Below are positions 5,305 to 46,906 of a DNA stretch of 64,000 nt, piece by piece. This stretch comes from an uncultured Eubacteriales bacterium (GTDB lineage Bacteria > Bacillota > Clostridia > Peptostreptococcales > Anaerovoracaceae). The notes beneath the pieces were generated by a model. The model saw only the letters and a program-made list of their open reading frames with translations. It was not told where the DNA came from and did not search any database. The first letter of the stretch is position 1, and each line of letters starts with the position of its first letter. The translations under genes and the position numbers were made by a program. The DNA is taken from positions 1-64,000 of the forward strand of contig CACYPK010000004.1 in NCBI GenBank assembly GCA_902776285.1, given 5' to 3'.

Positions 5305-6693
5305 ATGCAGAAGAAACCCATCACCAATAAGCTTTTGTGGATATTCGCTGTAGGGCAGTTCGGATGGAGCCTGCTCGCGGGCATAGTGTCCAACTGGATG
5401 GTCTACTACTACACGGGCACGCCTAATGAACAGAATCCTCTGACGGGCATCTTTGCCTCGGGCATCACGCAGGATCATATTTTCCTGAAACTGACCCTTT
5501 TCGGTCTGGTGCTCGCTGTCGGCCGCATATTTGACGCCATAACAGATCCTCTGATCGCGGGCTGGTCTGACAGAGCCAAATTCAAGGGCGGACGGCGCAT
5601 CCCGTTCATGAAAGCGATAGCGATACCGTTCGCTCTTCTGACGATCGGTCTGTTCACCCTGCCTCAGACGGCAAACATAGCTGTCAATGATACGATAGTC
5701 TTTGTGCTGATGATCTCGTTCTATCTGTTCATGACTATATACTGCACGCCGTACAATGCTCTGATCGCGGAGCTCGGCGATACGCAGGAACACCGCATCA
5801 ACGTATCTACATACATTTCATTCACATACATTGCCGGTCTTTCGATCTCTTACATGCTGCCTAACGTTGCGGGCATGATACAGGGAGCGGTAGGACCGGA
5901 GAACTCCATCCGCTTTGCAGTCGCCATAATGTCGACAGTCGCCTGCATCGCGATGCTGATACCGTCGTTTTATATCAAGGAGCGTGATTATCTTGATGCC
6001 AGGCCGAGCGAGACAAAGGCTTTCGCCTCGCTGCTCAAGACCTTCCAGAACGGCATGTTCCGCCGCTTCGTATACAGCGACGTGATATACTTCTTTGCGC
6101 TGACGCTCTTCCAGACTGGCCTCGCGTTCTATGAGACAAAACTGATGAAGATAGAGGACACATGGACATTCGTACTGACTGCTACCATGACTTTCCTCAG
6201 CGTATGTCAGTATCCGATAGTCAACAAGCTGGCTCCTAAGATCGGCAAAAAGAAGATGATAATTACAGGGTTCTTCGCGTATTCAGCGGTGTTCCTCATC
6301 ACTTTCCTGTGCGGAGAGGGACTTGTATGGGGATTCATTGTTGCCGTGTGCGCTTCAGTGCCTATGGCCATCCTCGGCATCCTGCCTCAGGCCTGTGTCG
6401 CTGATGTCGCTGAACTGAGCCGTCTGGAGACAGGCGAGGACAGGAGCGGAATGTTCTTCGCGGCGCGTACATTCGCGTTCAAGATGGGCCAGGCTATCGC
6501 CCTCGCGGTATTCACTTCGATGACCGCTATCGCGAATGTTCCCGGAACGACCGAGGCAGTCGCGGCAGCCGCTTACCGCAGGACCGCGCTGGTCGCGTTC
6601 ATCTGCTGTGTCATAGGAGCGTGCCTGTTCTTCCTGTTTAAGGAGAAGGAGATCCTTGCAAAGATCGAGAAGCTTAAGGGAGAAGAGAAATAG
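5305..6693 (+). CDS. GPH-family sugar:cation symporter (MelB/XynP-like MFS)
   Basis: Membrane carrier of 462 aa with about twelve transmembrane helices. The N-terminal segment GRIFDAITDPLIAGWSD holds the GPH-family cation-site signature (D-x-x-x-D-P-x-x-G), and YCTPYNALIAEL is the conserved helix-5 motif of glycoside-pentoside-hexuronide symporters. The substrate is probably a glycoside or pentoside; it cannot be read from sequence. Ribosome site AAAGGAG at 5289 with 9-nt spacing supports the ATG. Its TAG stop touches the start region of the following MATE gene. Confidence 0.9.
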   Translation: MQKKPITNKLLWIFAVGQFGWSLLAGIVSNWMVYYYTGTPNEQNPLTGIFASGITQDHIFLKLTLFGLVLAVGRIFDAITDPLIAGWSDRAKFKGGRRIPFMKAIAIPFALLTIGLFTLPQTANIAVNDTIVFVLMISFYLFMTIYCTPYNALIAELGDTQEHRINVSTYISFTYIAGLSISYMLPNVAGMIQGAVGPENSIRFAVAIMSTVACIAMLIPSFYIKERDYLDARPSETKAFASLLKTFQNGMFRRFVYSDVIYFFALTLFQTGLAFYETKLMKIEDTWTFVLTATMTFLSVCQYPIVNKLAPKIGKKKMIITGFFAYSAVFLITFLCGEGLVWGFIVAVCASVPMAILGILPQACVADVAELSRLETGEDRSGMFFAARTFAFKMGQAIALAVFTSMTAIANVPGTTEAVAAAAYRRTALVAFICCVIGACLFFLFKEKEILAKIEKLKGEEK

Positions 6694-8084
6694 ATAAACA
6701 AGTCGCAGACAATCCGCTTGGCAGCGCGCCGCTGCTGCCGCTGATAGCAAGGTACGCCATACCTTCGATAATCAGCATGCTGGTAGGCGCCGTGTACAAT
6801 ATCACTGACCAGATTTTCATCGGCCACGTGGTTGGCATGCTCGGAAACGCGGCTACAAACATAGTATTCCCGACAGTGACGCTCACAACGGGCATAAGTA
6901 TGCTGTTCGGGATAGGCACTGCTTCAAACTTCAGCATCAATCAGGGAGCAGGAAGGATAGAAGAAGCAAAAAAATATGTCCACACCGGTATCACCGGCGC
7001 GGCGGCGGCAGGCATCGTTACGGGCCTGCTGCTTTTTGTGTTCAAGAGCGATATAGTGGCACTCTGCGGGGCGGACCCCGCCGGGACCGTATATCCGCTG
7101 GCGATAACATATTTATCCGTGACCATGTTCGGCCTGCCGTTCCATCTGTTCACCCAGGCGTCCGCGCCGCTCATCAGAGCGGACGGAAGCCCTGCGTACT
7201 CGATGCTGTGCATGGTAGAGGGAGCGGTACTGAACGTGTTCCTTGACTGGCTGTTCATGTTCCCCATGGGCATGGGGCTCAGGGGAGCGGCAATAGCCAC
7301 CGCTATATCACAGTTCTCCAGCTGCATGCTGGCGATCCTTTACTATCCGCGCTTTAAAGCTTTCAGAATACGGTTCAGGGATCTGGGGATCAGCGTGAAG
7401 CATCTTACCGGAAGCATGAAGACAGGCATTCCGAACTTCATCAACCATATGCTGATGATGTGCACCAATATAGTGCTCAACAACATGCTCGCGACATATG
7501 GCGCACTGTCGATATACGGGCCGGAGATACCCCTTGCCGTATCGGGCATCGCACAGAAGTGCAACATGATAATGATATCGTTCGCGGTGGGAATATCTCA
7601 AGGCTGCCAGCCTATATGGGGCTTCAATCTCGGCGCAAAAAACTACACGAGAGTCAAGAGCACGTACTGGAGAGCCTTCGGAGCGGCTTTTGGCGTAGGC
7701 GTGCTGTTCTTTTTCGCGCTGCAGACGTTCCCGAGGGAGATCATCTCTTTCTTCGGTACGGGAACGGACCTGTATTACGAGTTCGCGGAGAAATACCTTA
7801 AGATATACATGATGTTCGTATTCTTCCAGAACATACAGCCGGTCACTATCATGTACTTCTCGGCCACAGGCAACAACAAACAGGGGCTTCTGGTGTCGCT
7901 TTCGAGACAGGGGCTGTTCCTGATCCCGCTGCTTATAATACTGCCAAAGTTCTTTGGGATAAACGGCATACTCGCGGCGAGCCCTATATCTGACACAATG
8001 GCATTCACAATGTCTGTGTCGATGGTGCTTCTGAGTTTCAGGAGGCTGTCGGGACTGGGACCGCAGGGAACAGAAGAGCAGTAA
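6690..8084 (+). CDS. MATE family efflux transporter, apparent AUA start
   Basis: Multidrug/toxin-extrusion type carrier with about twelve transmembrane helices. The first ATG in frame (6777) lies inside helix 1, yet the frame upstream encodes the usual MATE N-terminus (NPLGSAPLLPLIARYAIPSI) back to an in-frame TAA at 6675. No ATG, GTG or TTG occurs between 6678 and 6777. The most likely start is ATA at 6690, 8 nt after AAGGGA and overlapping the upstream TAG as ATAG; this gives 464 aa, the normal family length. Alternatives are a CTG start, inefficient initiation at 6777, or a sequence error. The family call itself is secure; the start is not. Confidence 0.85.
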   Translation: MDKQVADNPLGSAPLLPLIARYAIPSIISMLVGAVYNITDQIFIGHVVGMLGNAATNIVFPTVTLTTGISMLFGIGTASNFSINQGAGRIEEAKKYVHTGITGAAAAGIVTGLLLFVFKSDIVALCGADPAGTVYPLAITYLSVTMFGLPFHLFTQASAPLIRADGSPAYSMLCMVEGAVLNVFLDWLFMFPMGMGLRGAAIATAISQFSSCMLAILYYPRFKAFRIRFRDLGISVKHLTGSMKTGIPNFINHMLMMCTNIVLNNMLATYGALSIYGPEIPLAVSGIAQKCNMIMISFAVGISQGCQPIWGFNLGAKNYTRVKSTYWRAFGAAFGVGVLFFFALQTFPREIISFFGTGTDLYYEFAEKYLKIYMMFVFFQNIQPVTIMYFSATGNNKQGLLVSLSRQGLFLIPLLIILPKFFGINGILAASPISDTMAFTMSVSMVLLSFRRLSGLGPQGTEEQ

Positions 8085-8101
8085 AAGAAAAAGAGTAAAA
8101 C

Positions 8102-8139
8102 AAAAACCGCAGCGCATGTGCATACGCTGCGGTTCTTTT
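8102..8139. terminator. Bidirectional terminator between convergent genes
   Basis: ACCGCAGCG (8106-8114) pairs perfectly with CGCTGCGGT (8125-8133). An A run precedes and a T run follows, so the hairpin can stop transcription from the MATE gene on plus and from pepT on minus. Confidence 0.85.
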
Positions 8140-8159
8140 ATTGAGTTTTAATTTACAGG

Positions 8160-9371
8160 TCACTTGACGCTTACGAGTTCCAGAAGAACGTCCACCATTT
8201 TCTCAAGCGACTGCACCGGCATGTATTCAGTGTTGGAATGGAAGTTCATTCCGCCTGTCGAGAGGTTAGGGCAAGGGATGCCCCTGTAGGTGAGATCCGC
8301 TCCGTCCGTACCGCCTCTGATAGGCTGTATTATCGGTTCGACTCCGCATGCCCTGAAAGCAGCCTTGGCATTGTCGATAAGAAACATATGCGGTACTATG
8401 AGCTCTTTCATGTTGCGGTACTGGTCGCGTATTTCGAGGGTTATGACATTGCCGTACTTGCCGTTGAGGAAATCGACGCATTTCTGCATCACCATCTTTT
8501 TTTCTTCAAAAGCGAGCAGGTCGTGATCCCTTATGATATAGCGGGATTCCGCCTCCGCGCTTGTTCCCTCCATCCAGGTCATGTGGAAGAACCCCTCGTA
8601 ATCATTTGTATATTCGGGCCGCTGGCTGTGCGGCAGCATCCCGTCCAGTTCCGCTGCGATCCGTACCGCGTTCACCATTATGTTGAAGGCATATCCCGGG
8701 TGGATGTCACGTCCCTTGAAATAGAGGCGTGCTTCGGCAGCGTTGAAGCATTCATACTCCAGTTCTCCGATAGGACCGCCGTCTACCGTATACGCGTAGT
8801 CCACTCCAAAGCCTTCTACGTCGAAGAATTCCGTGCCCTTGCCGATCTCCTCGTCGCGTGTGAAGGCTATGCCTATTTTGCCGTGTGGGATGGAAGGGTC
8901 GTTGATCAGTGTCTCTGCCAGTGTCATGATCTCGGCTATGCCGCCCTTGTCGTCTCCGCCAAGCAGCGACACACCGTCGGTGACTATCAGATCGCAGCCA
9001 ACATATTTCTTCAGATCCGGATAGATAGCCGGGTCGAGTTTGACCGATTCGTTCAGTTTCACTATGCCGCCGTCGTAATTCCTGTGGATCCTCGCGTTGC
9101 TGGCATCGCCCGGCGTTCTCGGAGCGGTATCCATGTGCGCTATGAATCCAAGAGAAGGGACGTCTTTATCCGTATTTGAAGGTATGGTCCCGTATACATA
9201 GCAGTTGCGGTCATCGAGTCTTACATCCGATACGCCTATATCTATCATTTCTTCTGCCAGGAGTCTCGCCAGCCTGAACTGCTTGTAGGTGCTCGGAGAA
9301 GTAGTGCTGTCCTCGTCGGACTGCGTATCTATGGAGATATATCTCATGAACCTGTCAACGATCTTGCTCAT
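8160..9371 (-). CDS. pepT: Peptidase T (tripeptidase, M20B)
   Basis: Cytoplasmic zinc aminotripeptidase that removes the N-terminal residue of tripeptides. The start MSKIVDRFMRYISIDTQSDE is the family N-terminus, and 403 aa is the usual length. Metal-site motifs are present: HMDTAP, then GGDDKGGIAE, then DEEIGKGTEFFD. The late motif IRGGTDGADLTYRGIPCPN also matches. The frame extends 16 codons further upstream but without a family match. The gene is transcribed alone and convergent with the MATE gene. Confidence 0.95.
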   Translation of the reverse strand: MSKIVDRFMRYISIDTQSDEDSTTSPSTYKQFRLARLLAEEMIDIGVSDVRLDDRNCYVYGTIPSNTDKDVPSLGFIAHMDTAPRTPGDASNARIHRNYDGGIVKLNESVKLDPAIYPDLKKYVGCDLIVTDGVSLLGGDDKGGIAEIMTLAETLINDPSIPHGKIGIAFTRDEEIGKGTEFFDVEGFGVDYAYTVDGGPIGELEYECFNAAEARLYFKGRDIHPGYAFNIMVNAVRIAAELDGMLPHSQRPEYTNDYEGFFHMTWMEGTSAEAESRYIIRDHDLLAFEEKKMVMQKCVDFLNGKYGNVITLEIRDQYRNMKELIVPHMFLIDNAKAAFRACGVEPIIQPIRGGTDGADLTYRGIPCPNLSTGGMNFHSNTEYMPVQSLEKMVDVLLELVSVK

Positions 9372-41320: not shown

Positions 41321-42766
41321 TTATCCTCGCTTCCAGGTAGAAGGATAGAACAGCAGCAGAACAGGGAATAGTTCGAGCCTGCCGGCAAGCATGTCGAATG
41401 AGAGCACAAGCTTGGATAACATTGAGAACGATGCGTAATTGCCCGCGGGACCTACCATTCCGAGTCCCGGACCTATGTTGTTGATACATGCTATTACGCC
41501 GGTAACATTCGTCTCTAAAGGGAAGTTGTTCAGAGACACGAGGATCACGCTGGCTACTGAGATCATGCAGTAGACAGCCAGATAATTAAGGCAGGCGTTT
41601 ATGGTATCCTCTTCCATCATGCGGCCTTCGAAGCGGACGCTTCCGACAGATCTGGAGTGGATCATCCTGCGCATGCCTCTTTTGACGGTACGCTGTAAAA
41701 GTATCACCCTGGACACCTTGAGACCGCCGCCTGTGCTCCCCGCGCACGCTCCGACGAACATAAGGAACACGAGCAGAGTGCGTGAGTACTGCGGCCAGGT
41801 ATCGAAGTCCATGGTGCCGAAGCCGGTGGTCGTGATGATCGATGAGACTGCAAAGAATGAATGACGGACAGCCTGGTGGACACTGCCATACAGGCTGTTT
41901 ATATTTGCGGCGATCGTGATGACCGCAAAGGCGACAAAACCGAAATACCAGTGAAGCTCCTCACTGCTTAACGCGGTCCTGAAGCGTTTCAGCAGCATAA
42001 GGAAGTACAGGTTGAAGTTCACTCCGAAGAGCAGCATGAATACTCCAATGACCACTTCGAAGTATTCGCTGTCATAGAAGCCTATGCTTGCGCCGTGATT
42101 GGAGAAACCGCCTGTGCCGGCTGTTCCGAATACGTTGATAAAGCAGTCATATAGAGGCATTCCTCCGGCCAGCAGAAGGACCAGCATGAGAGCGGACATA
42201 GTGATATATATCCCGTAAAGGATACCGGCTGTGTCACGCATATGCGGTACCAGCTTGCCCGATGAAGGTCCCGGAGATTCTGCCCTCAGAAGGTGCATGC
42301 TTCGCTTGCCCCCGAGCGGGACTATGATCATGCCGAATACGAGTATGCCCATACCACCGATCCAGTGAGTGAAGCTGCGCCAGAACAGCATCGACTTGTC
42401 GAGAGCCTCTATATCCGTCAGGATGCTTGCTCCTGTCGTAGTGAAACCGGAGACGGTCTCAAAAAACGCGTCTACAGGGTTCGGGATCTGACCGCTGATG
42501 ATAAAAGGCAGACTTCCGAAAAGACTCAGCATGATCCAGGACAGGCCGGTTATGACAAATCCTTCGCGCGCGTAAATAGTGTTTGCGGCGGGCTTCACAA
42601 GGAGAAGCAGTCCGCCGGCAGCCGCGGTGACGCAGACTGTTATAAGAAACGCGCGAACAGAAGCCTGCTCATGAAAAATCAGCCCTACGACGAGGGGGAT
42701 AAGAAGCAGGCCTGCTTCTATCAGCATTATCAATCCGACTGTATGTAGTACTACCTTTGTTTTCAT
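41321..42766 (-). CDS. trkH: Trk-type potassium uptake transmembrane protein
   Basis: 481-aa K+ transporter subunit with four pore repeats. Filter-like loops are visible at SGFTTTGASIL, GTAGTGGFSNHG, ITTTGFGTMDF and INNIGPGLG, each following a membrane segment. It forms the membrane pore with TrkA as cytosolic regulator, encoded 3 nt upstream on the same strand. Its stop directly abuts that of the K+ channel gene. Confidence 0.95.
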   Translation of the reverse strand: MKTKVVLHTVGLIMLIEAGLLLIPLVVGLIFHEQASVRAFLITVCVTAAAGGLLLLVKPAANTIYAREGFVITGLSWIMLSLFGSLPFIISGQIPNPVDAFFETVSGFTTTGASILTDIEALDKSMLFWRSFTHWIGGMGILVFGMIIVPLGGKRSMHLLRAESPGPSSGKLVPHMRDTAGILYGIYITMSALMLVLLLAGGMPLYDCFINVFGTAGTGGFSNHGASIGFYDSEYFEVVIGVFMLLFGVNFNLYFLMLLKRFRTALSSEELHWYFGFVAFAVITIAANINSLYGSVHQAVRHSFFAVSSIITTTGFGTMDFDTWPQYSRTLLVFLMFVGACAGSTGGGLKVSRVILLQRTVKRGMRRMIHSRSVGSVRFEGRMMEEDTINACLNYLAVYCMISVASVILVSLNNFPLETNVTGVIACINNIGPGLGMVGPAGNYASFSMLSKLVLSFDMLAGRLELFPVLLLFYPSTWKRG

Positions 42767-42769
42767 ATG

Positions 42770-44128
42770 TTAGTGAAGGATCATCGAAAGATCCGACAGC
42801 TGCTTTATCGTTGTCGCTATGACTACATGGTCACCTTGCTCGATAGTATCGTCGCCGCGCGGGATTATTACGGCGCCCTTGCGCAGTATCGCGCAGATAA
42901 TAACTCCGTCTCTTGTCTTCAGATCCTTGAGAGGAGTGCCGGTAATGGACCCATGCTCCTCATATACGACGAATTCAAGCGCCTCGGCCGTGCCCTGGGC
43001 TATGCGGTAGAGTGTCTCCACATCGCTGCCTCCGGCGTTTTCCTTTGCGCGTACGTAGCTGATGATACGCGAAGCCACTATGTCACGCGGACATACGACA
43101 CTGCCTACGCGGTCCATGTCTATGAGATCGAGCATGCTGCTTTTGGAGACTTTTGTAACGACTTTAGGCACACCTTCGCGGAAAGCGTACATGCCCATCA
43201 GCATGTTGATCTCATCCGTTCCGGTAAGAGCAATGAAGGCATCCGCGCTATCCAGACCTTCTTCGCCCAGAATGTCGCGGTCAGTCCCGTCGGCATTGAT
43301 GATGAGGACCTTAGGTATCGCCTGATTCAGTGTTTCCGCGTTCGCCTGATTATTCTCTATCACGACAGGCTTCATGCCGACTTCACGCATCATGCGTATC
43401 AGGTAATACGCGATCATCCCGGCTCCGATGATTATCACATGCTTCGGCATACGGCTCTTGATGCCGCACAGTTTAAGGAAATGCTCGGTTTCCTTTGGCT
43501 CCGCGGCAAAACTGATAAAGTCGCCGGCCCTGAGAGTAGCATTGCCGTCAGGAATAACAGTGTTTCCGTCACGCCTTATGGCGCAGACCAGAGCTTTTGA
43601 ATTGTATTTCCTGGACAGTTCGTTAAGCGTCATCGATGTGGCAGGGCCTTCTTCAGACAGGCGGAATTCCACCATCTGGAACAGGCCGTGACCGAAGGAT
43701 TCCACGGACATGAGCCCCGGGAAACGAAGCACCGAAAAAATCTCCTGCGCCGCGTACAGCTCAGGATTTATGGTCATGGAAAGACCCATGTCTTCTGCGA
43801 ACATGTCGATCTCATCCGCGAGTTCGTGCTTGCGCACACGGGCGATCGTATGTGAGGTGCCCAGCTTCTTTGCCAGCAGGCAGCAAAGCATATTGACCTC
43901 GTCACTGTTCGTGGCGGCGATCACAAGGTCCGCTGTTCCGACGCCCGCCTCAAGCAGCACCTTGCGGTCCGCCGCGTTACCTGCAAGGCACAGCACATCA
44001 AAACTGTTCTGCAGATCCATGAGTTTTTTCTCGTTACGGTCTATGGCGACGATCTGGTGTCCTTCCTGTGTCAGCTGCTCTATGAGCACGCTTCCCACCT
44101 TGCCGGTGCCGATCACGACTATCTTCAT
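42770..44128 (-). CDS. trkA: Trk system potassium uptake regulatory protein
   Basis: 452-aa cytosolic NAD(H)-binding regulator. It has two tandem RCK units: TrkA-N domains starting at GTGKVG (7-12) and at VIIGAGMIAYYL (about 230), each followed by a TrkA-C domain (the second containing DLKTRDGVIICAILRKG). It gates TrkH. It is the first gene of the trkA-trkH unit and diverges from the GTPase-nuclease gene. Confidence 0.95.
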   Translation of the reverse strand: MKIVVIGTGKVGSVLIEQLTQEGHQIVAIDRNEKKLMDLQNSFDVLCLAGNAADRKVLLEAGVGTADLVIAATNSDEVNMLCCLLAKKLGTSHTIARVRKHELADEIDMFAEDMGLSMTINPELYAAQEIFSVLRFPGLMSVESFGHGLFQMVEFRLSEEGPATSMTLNELSRKYNSKALVCAIRRDGNTVIPDGNATLRAGDFISFAAEPKETEHFLKLCGIKSRMPKHVIIIGAGMIAYYLIRMMREVGMKPVVIENNQANAETLNQAIPKVLIINADGTDRDILGEEGLDSADAFIALTGTDEINMLMGMYAFREGVPKVVTKVSKSSMLDLIDMDRVGSVVCPRDIVASRIISYVRAKENAGGSDVETLYRIAQGTAEALEFVVYEEHGSITGTPLKDLKTRDGVIICAILRKGAVIIPRGDDTIEQGDHVVIATTIKQLSDLSMILH

Positions 44129-44230: not shown

Positions 44231-46906
44231 ATGCCCGATAAAAGGTTGACATTGGGAATACTCGCTCACGTCGATGCCGGCAAAACTACACTGTCGGAAG
44301 CTTTGCTCTATACGACCGGAGAGATAAGGAAACCCGGAAGGGTGGACCACGGAGATTCATTCCTCGATGATGATTCGATAGAGAGAAACCGCGGAATCAC
44401 CATTTTTTCCAGACAGGCAAGGTTCAGGGCCGGCGATACAGAAGTGACTCTTATAGATACACCGGGCCACGTGGATTTCGCGGCCGAGATGGAGAGGTCT
44501 CTTTCCGTACTGGATTACGCCCTGCTGGTTGTGAGCGGATCCGAGGGGGTGCAGGCACATACAAAGACCCTTTTCAGGCTTCTGAAAGAGAGGGGCATAC
44601 CGGTCTTCGTATTTGTCAACAAGATGGATATTGCCGTGAGACCCAAAGAGGACATACTGGCGCAGATGGCTTCTGAGCTTGAAGCGGGCATGGTCGATTT
44701 CAGCGAAGCCGCGGCCGGGACGGAGGCGTTCACGGACGCAGTGACTCTGTACTCGCCTGAACTGGCGGAGATCGTTCTTGAAGGCGGCATGCCTTCCGAT
44801 GATCAGATAGCGGATGCAGTGCTGAAGGCTGAGATCGTACCTTGCATGTTCGGATCGGCTCTGAAGATAGAAGGTATCGAAGAACTCATAGAAGTGATCG
44901 GAAGATACACGAAAGCGCCGGAATACGGCAGTGAGTTCGGCGCCAGAGTGTTCAAGATCGCTGACGCGGAGGACGGGGAGAGGCTGTGCTTCATCAAGGT
45001 GACCGGAGGAGAACTGAAGGTCAGGGACAGGGTGAAGGTGAACAGCGCATCCGGTGAAGAGCGGGAGGAGAAAGTCAATCAGATAAGGCTTTACTCCGGC
45101 AGCCGCTGCGTCGCCGCAGACTCCGCAGCGGCCGGCACGGTCTGCGCCGTGACGGGGCTCGGACGAGCCCTGCCGGGTGACGGACTGGGATCTGAAAAAC
45201 CGCTGAAAGACAGTGTTATCAAGCCTTTCATGGCATATACCGTGAGCGGACCGGAAGGCCTGGATCCTTATATTCTGCTAAGAGATCTCAATAAGCTTAC
45301 TGAAGAAGACCCGATGCTGAGCGCTTCCCGGAGGGCGGATGGCAGTTTAGAGATAAGGCTTATGGGTCAAGTACAGCTCGAGGTCCTGCAGACAGTTATC
45401 AGGGACAGATTCGGTTATGAAGTAAGCTTCGGATCGGGCAGCGTGCTGTATCTCGAGACCGTGAGCGGCACCTACGAGGGCATGGGACACTTCGAACCTC
45501 TGAGGCATTACGCGGAGGTGCACCTTATTGTCGAACCTGCCGAGCGGGGCAGCGGCATTGTCATAACTAGTATCGTCCCGGAAGACGAGTTGGCGCTCAA
45601 CTGGCAGCGCCTCATATTGACACACCTAGAGGAAAAGGAACATGCCGGCGTACTGACCGGCGCTCCTCTTACTGATGTGAAGATAAGCCTTGCCGCGGGC
45701 AGGGCTCATGACAAGCACACTACGGGAGGAGATTTCCGTGAGGCCACATACCGGGCGGTAAGGCACGCGCTGATGCAGGCAGGAGCGGACGGCAAGGCGG
45801 TCCTTCTGGAGCCGTGGTGCGAATACGAGATAGAACTGCCGGCGCAGAGTGTGGGACGCGCCATGACGGATATAAGACAGATGGGCGGCAGTCAGGACGG
45901 TCTTGAGCAGTCAGGCGACATCGCGAGGATAAAGGGCCGTGTTCCCGCAAATGAGATATCCGATTACCAGCTGACACTGGCGGGATATACATCAGGCGAG
46001 GGAAGGCTGTCCGTTACACCGTGCGGATACGACGTCTGCCATGACGCCGCGAAGGTCATCGAAGAAAAGGCGTATGAGCCTGAAAGAGATACGGACAACC
46101 CGGCGGATTCGGTCTTTGTGAACCACGGCGGCAGCGACATAGTGAAGTGGGACGAGGCCGCGGAACACATGCATCTCGGCAGTGTACTTAAGCGAAGAGC
46201 GCAGACGACGGCTGATCCTGCGGGATACGCGCCTAGGTCAAACACCGCGGCTGATGAGAACATCGACGTAAAGGAAGCGGCGCGCCGGAGGGCAGCCGCA
46301 GAGAAGGAGCTCCGCAAAATATTCGAGCGTACTTACGGCGCTTCAAAAGAGACGCGCCGCAGGGAGGTAAGCGAGGCGGACTACAGAAAAAAGCCGCGCA
46401 TTTCAGATGAAGAAGCCGCCCGCAACGAGGCGCGCAATCAGGAGATAAAGGCCCGTCACGAGAAAAAGACTGAAAAACCTGACGACAGACCGGTCCTGAT
46501 CCTTATAGACGGCTACAATCTCATATTCGCGGACGGGTATCTTAAGGATCTGTCGGCCCGCGACATGGGGTCCGCAAGAGACCAGCTGATCGACAGGATA
46601 TGCAATTACGCCGGCTATACCGGCTGTGAGACAGTCGTGCTGTTTGACGCTTACAATGTCCCGTACGGAACGGGCCATGAGGAAGTCATCAACGGCGTAA
46701 GAGTGATGTTCACCGCAGAGGACGAGCCTGCTGACATACGAATGGGCATGATGGCTGCTGAAAGCAGGGGCAGGCAGGTCTACGTGGTAACTTCGGACAA
46801 TCTGGTACAGACGGACGCGTGGGCGCACGGAGCTCTCCGCATATCATCGAGGGAGTTCCTTGACATGCTGGCCCGTACTGAAGAAGAGATACGATCTCAT
46901 CTGTGA
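44231..46906 (+). CDS. TetM/EF-G-like translational GTPase fused to Rae1/YacP-type NYN nuclease
   Basis: 891-aa cytoplasmic protein. The N-terminal 650 residues are an EF-G-like GTPase of the ribosomal-protection branch: G1 AHVDAGKTT (12-20), RGITI switch I, G3 DTPGH (76-80), G4 NKMD (130-133), then domains II-V. A charged linker (about 690-750) joins a C-terminal NYN domain (753-891) with acidic residues Asp760 (LIDGYN), Asp806 (LFDAYN) and Asp856 (TSDN), as in the ribosome-associated endonuclease Rae1/YacP. This suggests GTP-dependent delivery of an RNase to the ribosome (inference). No clear ribosome site is visible. It should not be called a tetracycline-resistance gene on similarity alone. 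Confidence 0.9.
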   Translation: MPDKRLTLGILAHVDAGKTTLSEALLYTTGEIRKPGRVDHGDSFLDDDSIERNRGITIFSRQARFRAGDTEVTLIDTPGHVDFAAEMERSLSVLDYALLVVSGSEGVQAHTKTLFRLLKERGIPVFVFVNKMDIAVRPKEDILAQMASELEAGMVDFSEAAAGTEAFTDAVTLYSPELAEIVLEGGMPSDDQIADAVLKAEIVPCMFGSALKIEGIEELIEVIGRYTKAPEYGSEFGARVFKIADAEDGERLCFIKVTGGELKVRDRVKVNSASGEEREEKVNQIRLYSGSRCVAADSAAAGTVCAVTGLGRALPGDGLGSEKPLKDSVIKPFMAYTVSGPEGLDPYILLRDLNKLTEEDPMLSASRRADGSLEIRLMGQVQLEVLQTVIRDRFGYEVSFGSGSVLYLETVSGTYEGMGHFEPLRHYAEVHLIVEPAERGSGIVITSIVPEDELALNWQRLILTHLEEKEHAGVLTGAPLTDVKISLAAGRAHDKHTTGGDFREATYRAVRHALMQAGADGKAVLLEPWCEYEIELPAQSVGRAMTDIRQMGGSQDGLEQSGDIARIKGRVPANEISDYQLTLAGYTSGEGRLSVTPCGYDVCHDAAKVIEEKAYEPERDTDNPADSVFVNHGGSDIVKWDEAAEHMHLGSVLKRRAQTTADPAGYAPRSNTAADENIDVKEAARRRAAAEKELRKIFERTYGASKETRRREVSEADYRKKPRISDEEAARNEARNQEIKARHEKKTEKPDDRPVLILIDGYNLIFADGYLKDLSARDMGSARDQLIDRICNYAGYTGCETVVLFDAYNVPYGTGHEEVINGVRVMFTAEDEPADIRMGMMAAESRGRQVYVVTSDNLVQTDAWAHGALRISSREFLDMLARTEEEIRSHL

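Follow-up and report, generated by a model that had tools for sequence, protein, structure and literature searches.

The window, that is, the whole 64,000-nucleotide stretch of DNA that we analyzed, carries a single uninterrupted reading frame of 891 codons on its forward strand, opening with ATG at position 44231 and running to 46906, as the sequence-only reading had claimed. The frame encodes a GTPase of the EF-G family joined to a nuclease domain of the Rae1/YacP type. Its parts are as follows, with residues numbered along the protein.

44231 to 46906, forward strand: whole gene, encoding 891 residues in which an EF-G-family GTPase is fused to a NYN nuclease of the Rae1 type
44231 to 44911, forward strand: G domain, residues 1-227, with motifs AHVDAGKTT, RGIT, DTPGH80, NKMD, and GSAL (Pfam GTP_EFTU)
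44936 to 45187, forward strand: domain II, residues 236-319 (Pfam EF-G_D2)
45236 to 45433, forward strand: domain III, residues 336-401 (Pfam EFG_III below cutoff, plus a structural match to EF-G)
45443 to 45781, forward strand: domain IV, residues 405-517 (Pfam EFG_IV)
45695 to 45763, forward strand: domain IV tip, residues 489-511, GRAHDKHTTGGDFREATYRAVRH, near-invariant in the family
45800 to 46045, forward strand: domain V, residues 524-605 (Pfam EFG_C)
46070 to 46174, forward strand: family-specific extension, residues 614-648, consensus gY..erD..NpaDSVFc.HGaG..v.W.eV...MH
46307 to 46339, forward strand: fusion-specific helix ELRKIFERTYG, residues 693-703, conserved within an otherwise disordered linker
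46340 to 46498, forward strand: linker, residues 704-756, model confidence low in parts
46499 to 46897, forward strand: Rae1/YacP-type NYN domain, residues 757-889 (Pfam, PDB match, and model)
46508 to 46510, forward strand: D760, equivalent to Rae1 D7, invariant
46646 to 46648, forward strand: D806, equivalent to Rae1 D53, invariant
46733 to 46735, forward strand: D835, equivalent to Rae1 D81, invariant and absent from the sequence-only list
46796 to 46798, forward strand: D856, equivalent to Rae1 D104, invariant

The GTPase half is complete. Pfam placed GTP_EFTU at residues 6-227, EFG_IV at 405-517, and EFG_C at 524-605, with E-values (for the whole protein) of 2.5e-51, 4.9e-16, and 4.7e-17, respectively; the score for EFG_III (21.9) fell below its cutoff of 27. 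The sequence-only reading had described an EF-G/TetM-like GTPase with all of its G motifs, which agrees with the five domains that we find in order and with motifs that, apart from G5, are nearly universal. Specifically, among 78 full-length relatives, G1 and G3 were present in every one, G4 in 77, G2 in 75, and the GSAL motif of G5 in 68. The catalytic histidine of EF-G-type GTPases is also in place, as His80 of the DTPGH motif. We obtained an AlphaFold2 model of the 891-residue protein from 58 window and locus sequences (mean pLDDT, 84.5) and a second model of residues 686-891 alone. In the full-length model, the family-specific extension forms a confident beta-hairpin followed by a helix, and it is at this extension that related GTPases lacking a nuclease come to an end. 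In and next to the extension, residues C603, H604, H632, and H648 (window positions 46037-46174) form a candidate metal site, beside which the unfused GTPases have two further cysteines, at positions 630 and 649.

The sequence-only reading had proposed a domain-architecture search, and this recovered the same arrangement in dozens of independent genomes, so the fusion is neither a product of chance nor an assembly error. It is also not new. In 2015, Atkinson and colleagues described, from ten species of Clostridiales, a Tet-NYN fusion of the same architecture and length as the window protein and classed it among the tetracycline resistance proteins, suggesting that the protein protects the ribosome in the manner of TetM and that the nuclease adds to resistance (PMC4342817). 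That classification predates the work on Rae1. It has some basis: among proteins of solved structure, the nearest by sequence to the first 600 residues are TetO and TetM, which share with the fusion the order of domains from G to V, about 30% identity, and the overall fold. When the model was superimposed on TetM (3j9y), 610 residues aligned with a Z score of 32.0 and an rmsd of 10.7 Å; the match to EF-G reached a Z score of about 41, and the high rmsd to both reflects the movement of domains against each other. EF-G itself shares all five domains but lacks the nuclease and has another domain IV tip, and the window's genome encodes a separate, canonical EF-G.

Several observations nevertheless contradict the label of ribosomal protection, which the sequence-only reading had also applied. 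Against the NCBIfam profile for these proteins (NF012153, tet_protect), the window protein scored 417.5 bits, far from the cutoff of 775. A tree of 28 fused and 16 unfused GTPases together with TetM, TetO, Tet36, and the EF-G of the window's own genome, built by a quick method with SH-aLRT support only, placed the fused proteins on one side of a branch with a support of 99. With the exception of one distant sequence, the unfused GTPases of about 650 residues were their nearest kin, and fused and unfused proteins together stood apart from TetM, TetO, and Tet36, the only three ribosomal protection proteins in the tree, with a support of 100 on both branches. The fused GTPases thus form a separate clade whose sister is the unfused GTPase. 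The distant sequence (L114) represents a third EF-G-like GTPase, 636 residues long with the tip EDHVMHSNPGDF and 34% identity in domain IV, that belongs neither to the ribosomal protection proteins nor to the fusion family.

The tip of domain IV sets the clade apart as well. It reads GRAHxKHTxGGDFR in the fused proteins, compared to YYSPVSTPADFR in TetM and FHEVDSSEMAFK in EF-G. The H.KHT pattern was present in 75 of the 78 full-length relatives, the stretch H.KHTxGGDFR is near-invariant in the fused proteins and in most unfused ones, and the Ser-Pro-Val of loop III is missing. In TetM, Pro509 of this Ser-Pro-Val tip overlaps tetracycline (PMC7456112). Yet, a TetM variant in which the tip was replaced by alanines (S508A/P509A/V510A) was reported to be still active (PMC4750697), so the changed tip alone does not exclude ribosomal protection. 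Further evidence against a resistance function comes from the distribution of the gene, which is widespread, mostly single-copy, and chromosomal in commensals, and from three congeners of the window's organism in which domain IV has been lost altogether. In view of this evidence, tetracycline protection by the fused protein appears unlikely, and we give the suggestion of a resistance-enhancing nuclease little credence.

The relationship between the two halves can be followed in genomes where they are separate. When 297 order-level genomes were queried with domain IV, about 40 of them proved to encode the unfused GTPase. In 39, this was the only form, and by hand count 38 of these also had a stand-alone rae1, the exception being a genome that is 85% complete (G232). 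At the class level, five genomes with the unfused GTPase had rae1 and four did not. In G357, G321, G318, and G344 (loci L102, L103, and L108), the unfused GTPase is encoded with no NYN_YacP match at all, from which it follows that the GTPase has a Rae1-independent job in these four genomes. The pairing of unfused GTPase and rae1 is therefore common, not obligatory. The two genes were not found next to each other in the unfused genomes, and in G101 they lie about 1 Mb apart. Genome G277 has both forms at once, side by side: a fused GTPase and an unfused one, in open frames of 882 and 649 codons, respectively.

Between the GTPase and the nuclease lies a linker that holds one conserved stretch. 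The pattern ELxxIFERTYG was strictly kept in 76 of the 78 full-length relatives, with minor variants in the other two, and it is absent from the unfused GTPases, which end before that point. It is modeled as a helix between poorly modeled stretches, with pLDDT below 50 at residues 705-723 and 743-750; among the relatives, the linker has a median length of 38 residues and a net charge of +4. A docking role for this helix is likely. We also considered whether the nuclease had been hung on the tail helix of TetM, an idea prompted by a MAFFT alignment of "DKVRYMF" in TetM and "DKLMYMFE" in Tet36 with "DKELxxIFE" in the fusions; it was dropped because the unfused orthologs stop before the helix and the motif is short. 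In one metagenome-assembled genome (L012, positions 6001-8709), an in-frame stop at residue 749 separates GTPase from nuclease, either because the gene is split or because the assembly is wrong there.

Within the window's genus, we found natural variants that reveal which parts of the fusion stay together.

L170, 3860 to 5767, reverse strand: short fusion without domain IV, domain V, and the extension
L184, 3063 to 4988, reverse strand: short fusion without domain IV, domain V, and the extension
L185, 1057 to 3390, forward strand: short fusion without domain IV, domain V, and the extension

The frames have 635 codons in G136 (99% complete) and 641 codons in G445 and are partly masked in G460. 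All three retain domains G, II, and III, the helix ELxxIFERTYG, and a NYN domain in which all four aspartates are present; they have also lost R870 of the GALR motif. In G120, the domain IV tip is degenerate and the helix and nuclease are kept. Together, these deletions and the decay of the tip argue that GTPase, helix, and nuclease make up the conserved core and that the domain that inserts into the A site is dispensable. This pattern bears on a further explanation, namely, that the GTPase is a distinct translation factor to which the NYN domain is merely tethered, raising its local concentration at ribosomes while GTP hydrolysis is uncoupled from cleavage. Such an arrangement would account for the unfused GTPase in genomes without rae1, for a linker that is largely disordered in the model, and for the conservation of the whole of domain IV in nearly all fused GTPases. 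It fits less well with the persistence of the fusion, with its own linker helix, across many families after an apparently single origin, or with short variants that drop domains IV and V and still keep GTPase and nuclease joined. We regard mere tethering as a fairly unlikely alternative.

The nuclease half is of the Rae1/YacP type. The NYN_YacP profile (PF05991) matched residues 757-889 with an E-value of 2.1e-33 and 116 bits, well above the cutoff of 24.6, and the C-terminal 139 residues matched Bacillus subtilis YacP/Rae1 in the PDB (5mq8; E-value, 8.5e-21). When the model of residues 686-891 was compared with Rae1 (5mq9), 128 residues aligned with a Z score of 19.1 and an rmsd of 1.8 Å; the next fold scored about 8. 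The YacP/Rae1-type domain that the sequence-only reading recognized is thus borne out by the profile, and the comparison with Rae1 that it proposed returned the NYN fold in the model. The three acidic residues named there (760, 806, and 856) were correct, but the set was incomplete: D835 is a fourth aspartate, and all four are invariant in the NYN domains compared, about 80 of them fused and 25 stand-alone. In addition to fold and aspartates, the domain has the DGYN, FDAY, and TSD motifs in common with B. subtilis Rae1. The B. subtilis protein differs in being a stand-alone enzyme of about 170 residues whose gene adjoins rlmB, as opposed to the C-terminal part of an 891-residue chain.

In B. 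subtilis, Rae1 has been described as an endoribonuclease that cuts mRNA in the ribosomal A site, to which its access may rise upon stalling (PMC6613710). The same source reports that R166P, a substitution in the C-terminal tail, inactivates the enzyme (PMC6613710). The NYN domain of the window aligns to residues 1-139 of Rae1 only, in the model of residues 686-891, and lacks the last 30 or so residues of the B. subtilis protein. Many other fusions match the NYN_YacP profile to about position 165 of 166, and the missing tail is therefore a trait of the window's lineage. Since this tail holds R166, activity of the window protein on ribosomes is not certain.

A separate rae1 is missing from nearly all genomes that carry the fusion. 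A check for stand-alone yacP in the window's genome, which the sequence-only reading had also proposed, found none: the single NYN_YacP match in a profile search of the genome was the fusion itself. Among 156 class-level genomes, 58 had a fused NYN domain (including five in broken or contig-edge frames), 47 had a stand-alone one, and none had both above the cutoff, in hand counts that do not represent independent events, as the sampled genomes are related. Two NYN matches were found in five of the 297 order-level genomes. Three of these are explained otherwise, by a fragment in G255, by an insertion that splits one gene in G285, and by a broken stand-alone gene in G057; a real pair of fused and stand-alone Rae1 occurs only in G112 (L153 and L166) and G213 (L152 and L165). 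G112 has kept its stand-alone copy, a diverged one, in the slot between rlmB and sigH (L175).

This slot is where stand-alone rae1 belongs. The gene lies between rlmB and sigH in all 11 unfused genomes that we read. By comparison, no NYN gene followed rlmB in any of 23 readable fusion genomes, including that of the window, and in 12 of them rlmB was followed directly by sigH; the counts leave out L145, a locus that was not parsed. In the window's own genome (contig C12, near 36210; L119), the genes after rlmB are secE and nusG, and neither yacP nor sigH is in the slot. The empty slot indicates that rae1 was lost from its old place in carriers of the fusion, although the order of fusion and loss cannot be told from these data. 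Taken together, the near-total absence of a separate rae1 from fusion genomes suggests that the nuclease now reaches the ribosome as part of a single factor.

The neighborhood of stand-alone rae1 also invites another interpretation, in which the fusion matures rRNA or tRNA, with the GTPase helping to assemble ribosomes, a role proposed for LepA or BipA, and the NYN domain trimming precursor rRNA. The adjoining gene, rlmB, encodes an rRNA methylase. Trimming of precursor rRNA was the first guess for NYN domains, made by Anantharaman and Aravind (as cited in PMC4342817), and translational GTPases such as LepA are discussed in connection with 30S biogenesis in the abstract of PMC12787274. However, the sole characterized member of the family, B. 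subtilis Rae1, is described as a cutter of mRNA in the A site (PMC6613710), and some near-complete genomes within the window's genus (G208 and G220) do without the fusion gene, which sets it apart from a core maturation enzyme. We therefore view a maturation role as unlikely.

The fusion is broadly distributed. It is present in Mogibacterium-like genomes, Gemmiger, Fournierella, Faecalibacterium, Ruminococcus, Pseudoflavonifractor, Monoglobus, and others, and a phylum-level sample added several further families. No conserved operon partner was found; the neighbors, which encode TrkA, TrkH, cyclophilin, and MscL, are conserved only within the genus, which leaves the fusion without an evident partner gene. 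The opposite strand immediately upstream (41321-44128) carries a divergent trkH-trkA pair for potassium uptake, likewise conserved only within the genus. Nucleases of the NYN/PIN type occur in toxin and antiphage systems, and the fusion could be imagined as an RNase toxin or antiphage effector that is held in check by its GTPase domain. Yet, there was no PADLOC match to a defense system and no conserved partner gene, and a mostly single-copy chromosomal gene that replaces a housekeeping gene makes a role of this kind highly improbable. A mobile origin was considered and rejected: phage records yielded two full-length matches and a 518-kb Monoglobus replicon yielded one, and there was no other sign.

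Ribosome-directed cleavage of mRNA is the best-supported idea, given that by sequence and predicted fold the nuclease belongs to the Rae1 family, that it has replaced stand-alone Rae1, and that its aspartates and the GTPase motifs are strongly conserved. The GTP-driven role in ribosome rescue or stress that the sequence-only reading suggested is a hypothesis. More specifically, we think it reasonably probable that Rae1 has been moved onto an EF-G-family GTPase, which delivers it to ribosomes with an open A site, where it cuts the mRNA. In its GTP form, the GTPase half would bind the factor site of ribosomes whose A site lacks aminoacyl-tRNA, for example, those that are paused or stalled. The tethered NYN domain would then cut the mRNA in or beside the A-site codon, and GTP hydrolysis would release the factor. 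The 3' fragment of the mRNA would be degraded, and the ribosome left on the truncated mRNA could be freed by tmRNA, which is present in the window's genome. Because domain IV of an EF-G-type protein and the nuclease cannot share the A site at once, the chain would have to act in steps. We infer that the protein binds ribosomes, that it cuts at the A site, and that GTP hydrolysis is linked to the cut or to release, and the trigger in the living cell is likewise inferred.

The proposed cycle resembles a process known from eukaryotes. There, Hbs1-Dom34 and the endonucleases of no-go decay link a translational GTPase at the A site of stalled ribosomes to cleavage of the mRNA. The fusion may, more tentatively, be a one-chain bacterial counterpart, in which a dedicated translational GTPase would recognize ribosomes whose A site is open and deliver an endonuclease to the mRNA at that codon under the control of GTP; in some species, this factor would be reduced to RF3-like domains G, II, and III plus the nuclease. 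The likeness to Hbs1-Dom34 is an analogy in outline only, as the nucleases are unrelated and several proteins are involved as opposed to one chain. RF3, which works on ribosomes, is made up of domains G, II, and III without IV and V, the same set that is left in the short congeners; RF3 (4v85) was also among the structural matches, and it differs in carrying no nuclease.

The fusion, considered together with relatives in which both halves are separate, strongly hints that Rae1 has a specific GTPase as its partner. This cooperation becomes testable in a single purified protein. Our analysis also assigns a likely role to a family of EF-G paralogs that is common in gut Clostridia, including Faecalibacterium, Gemmiger, and Ruminococcus. 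As far as the papers that we surveyed show, the relocation of rae1, the separate GTPase clade, and the short variants have no earlier description. Filing these fused paralogs with tetracycline resistance proteins could mislead surveys of resistance. In RefSeq, an ortholog goes by the name "translation factor GTPase family protein" (e.g., WP_320690501.1), and a Monoglobus protein in that collection aligns with the window protein from end to end at 44% identity.
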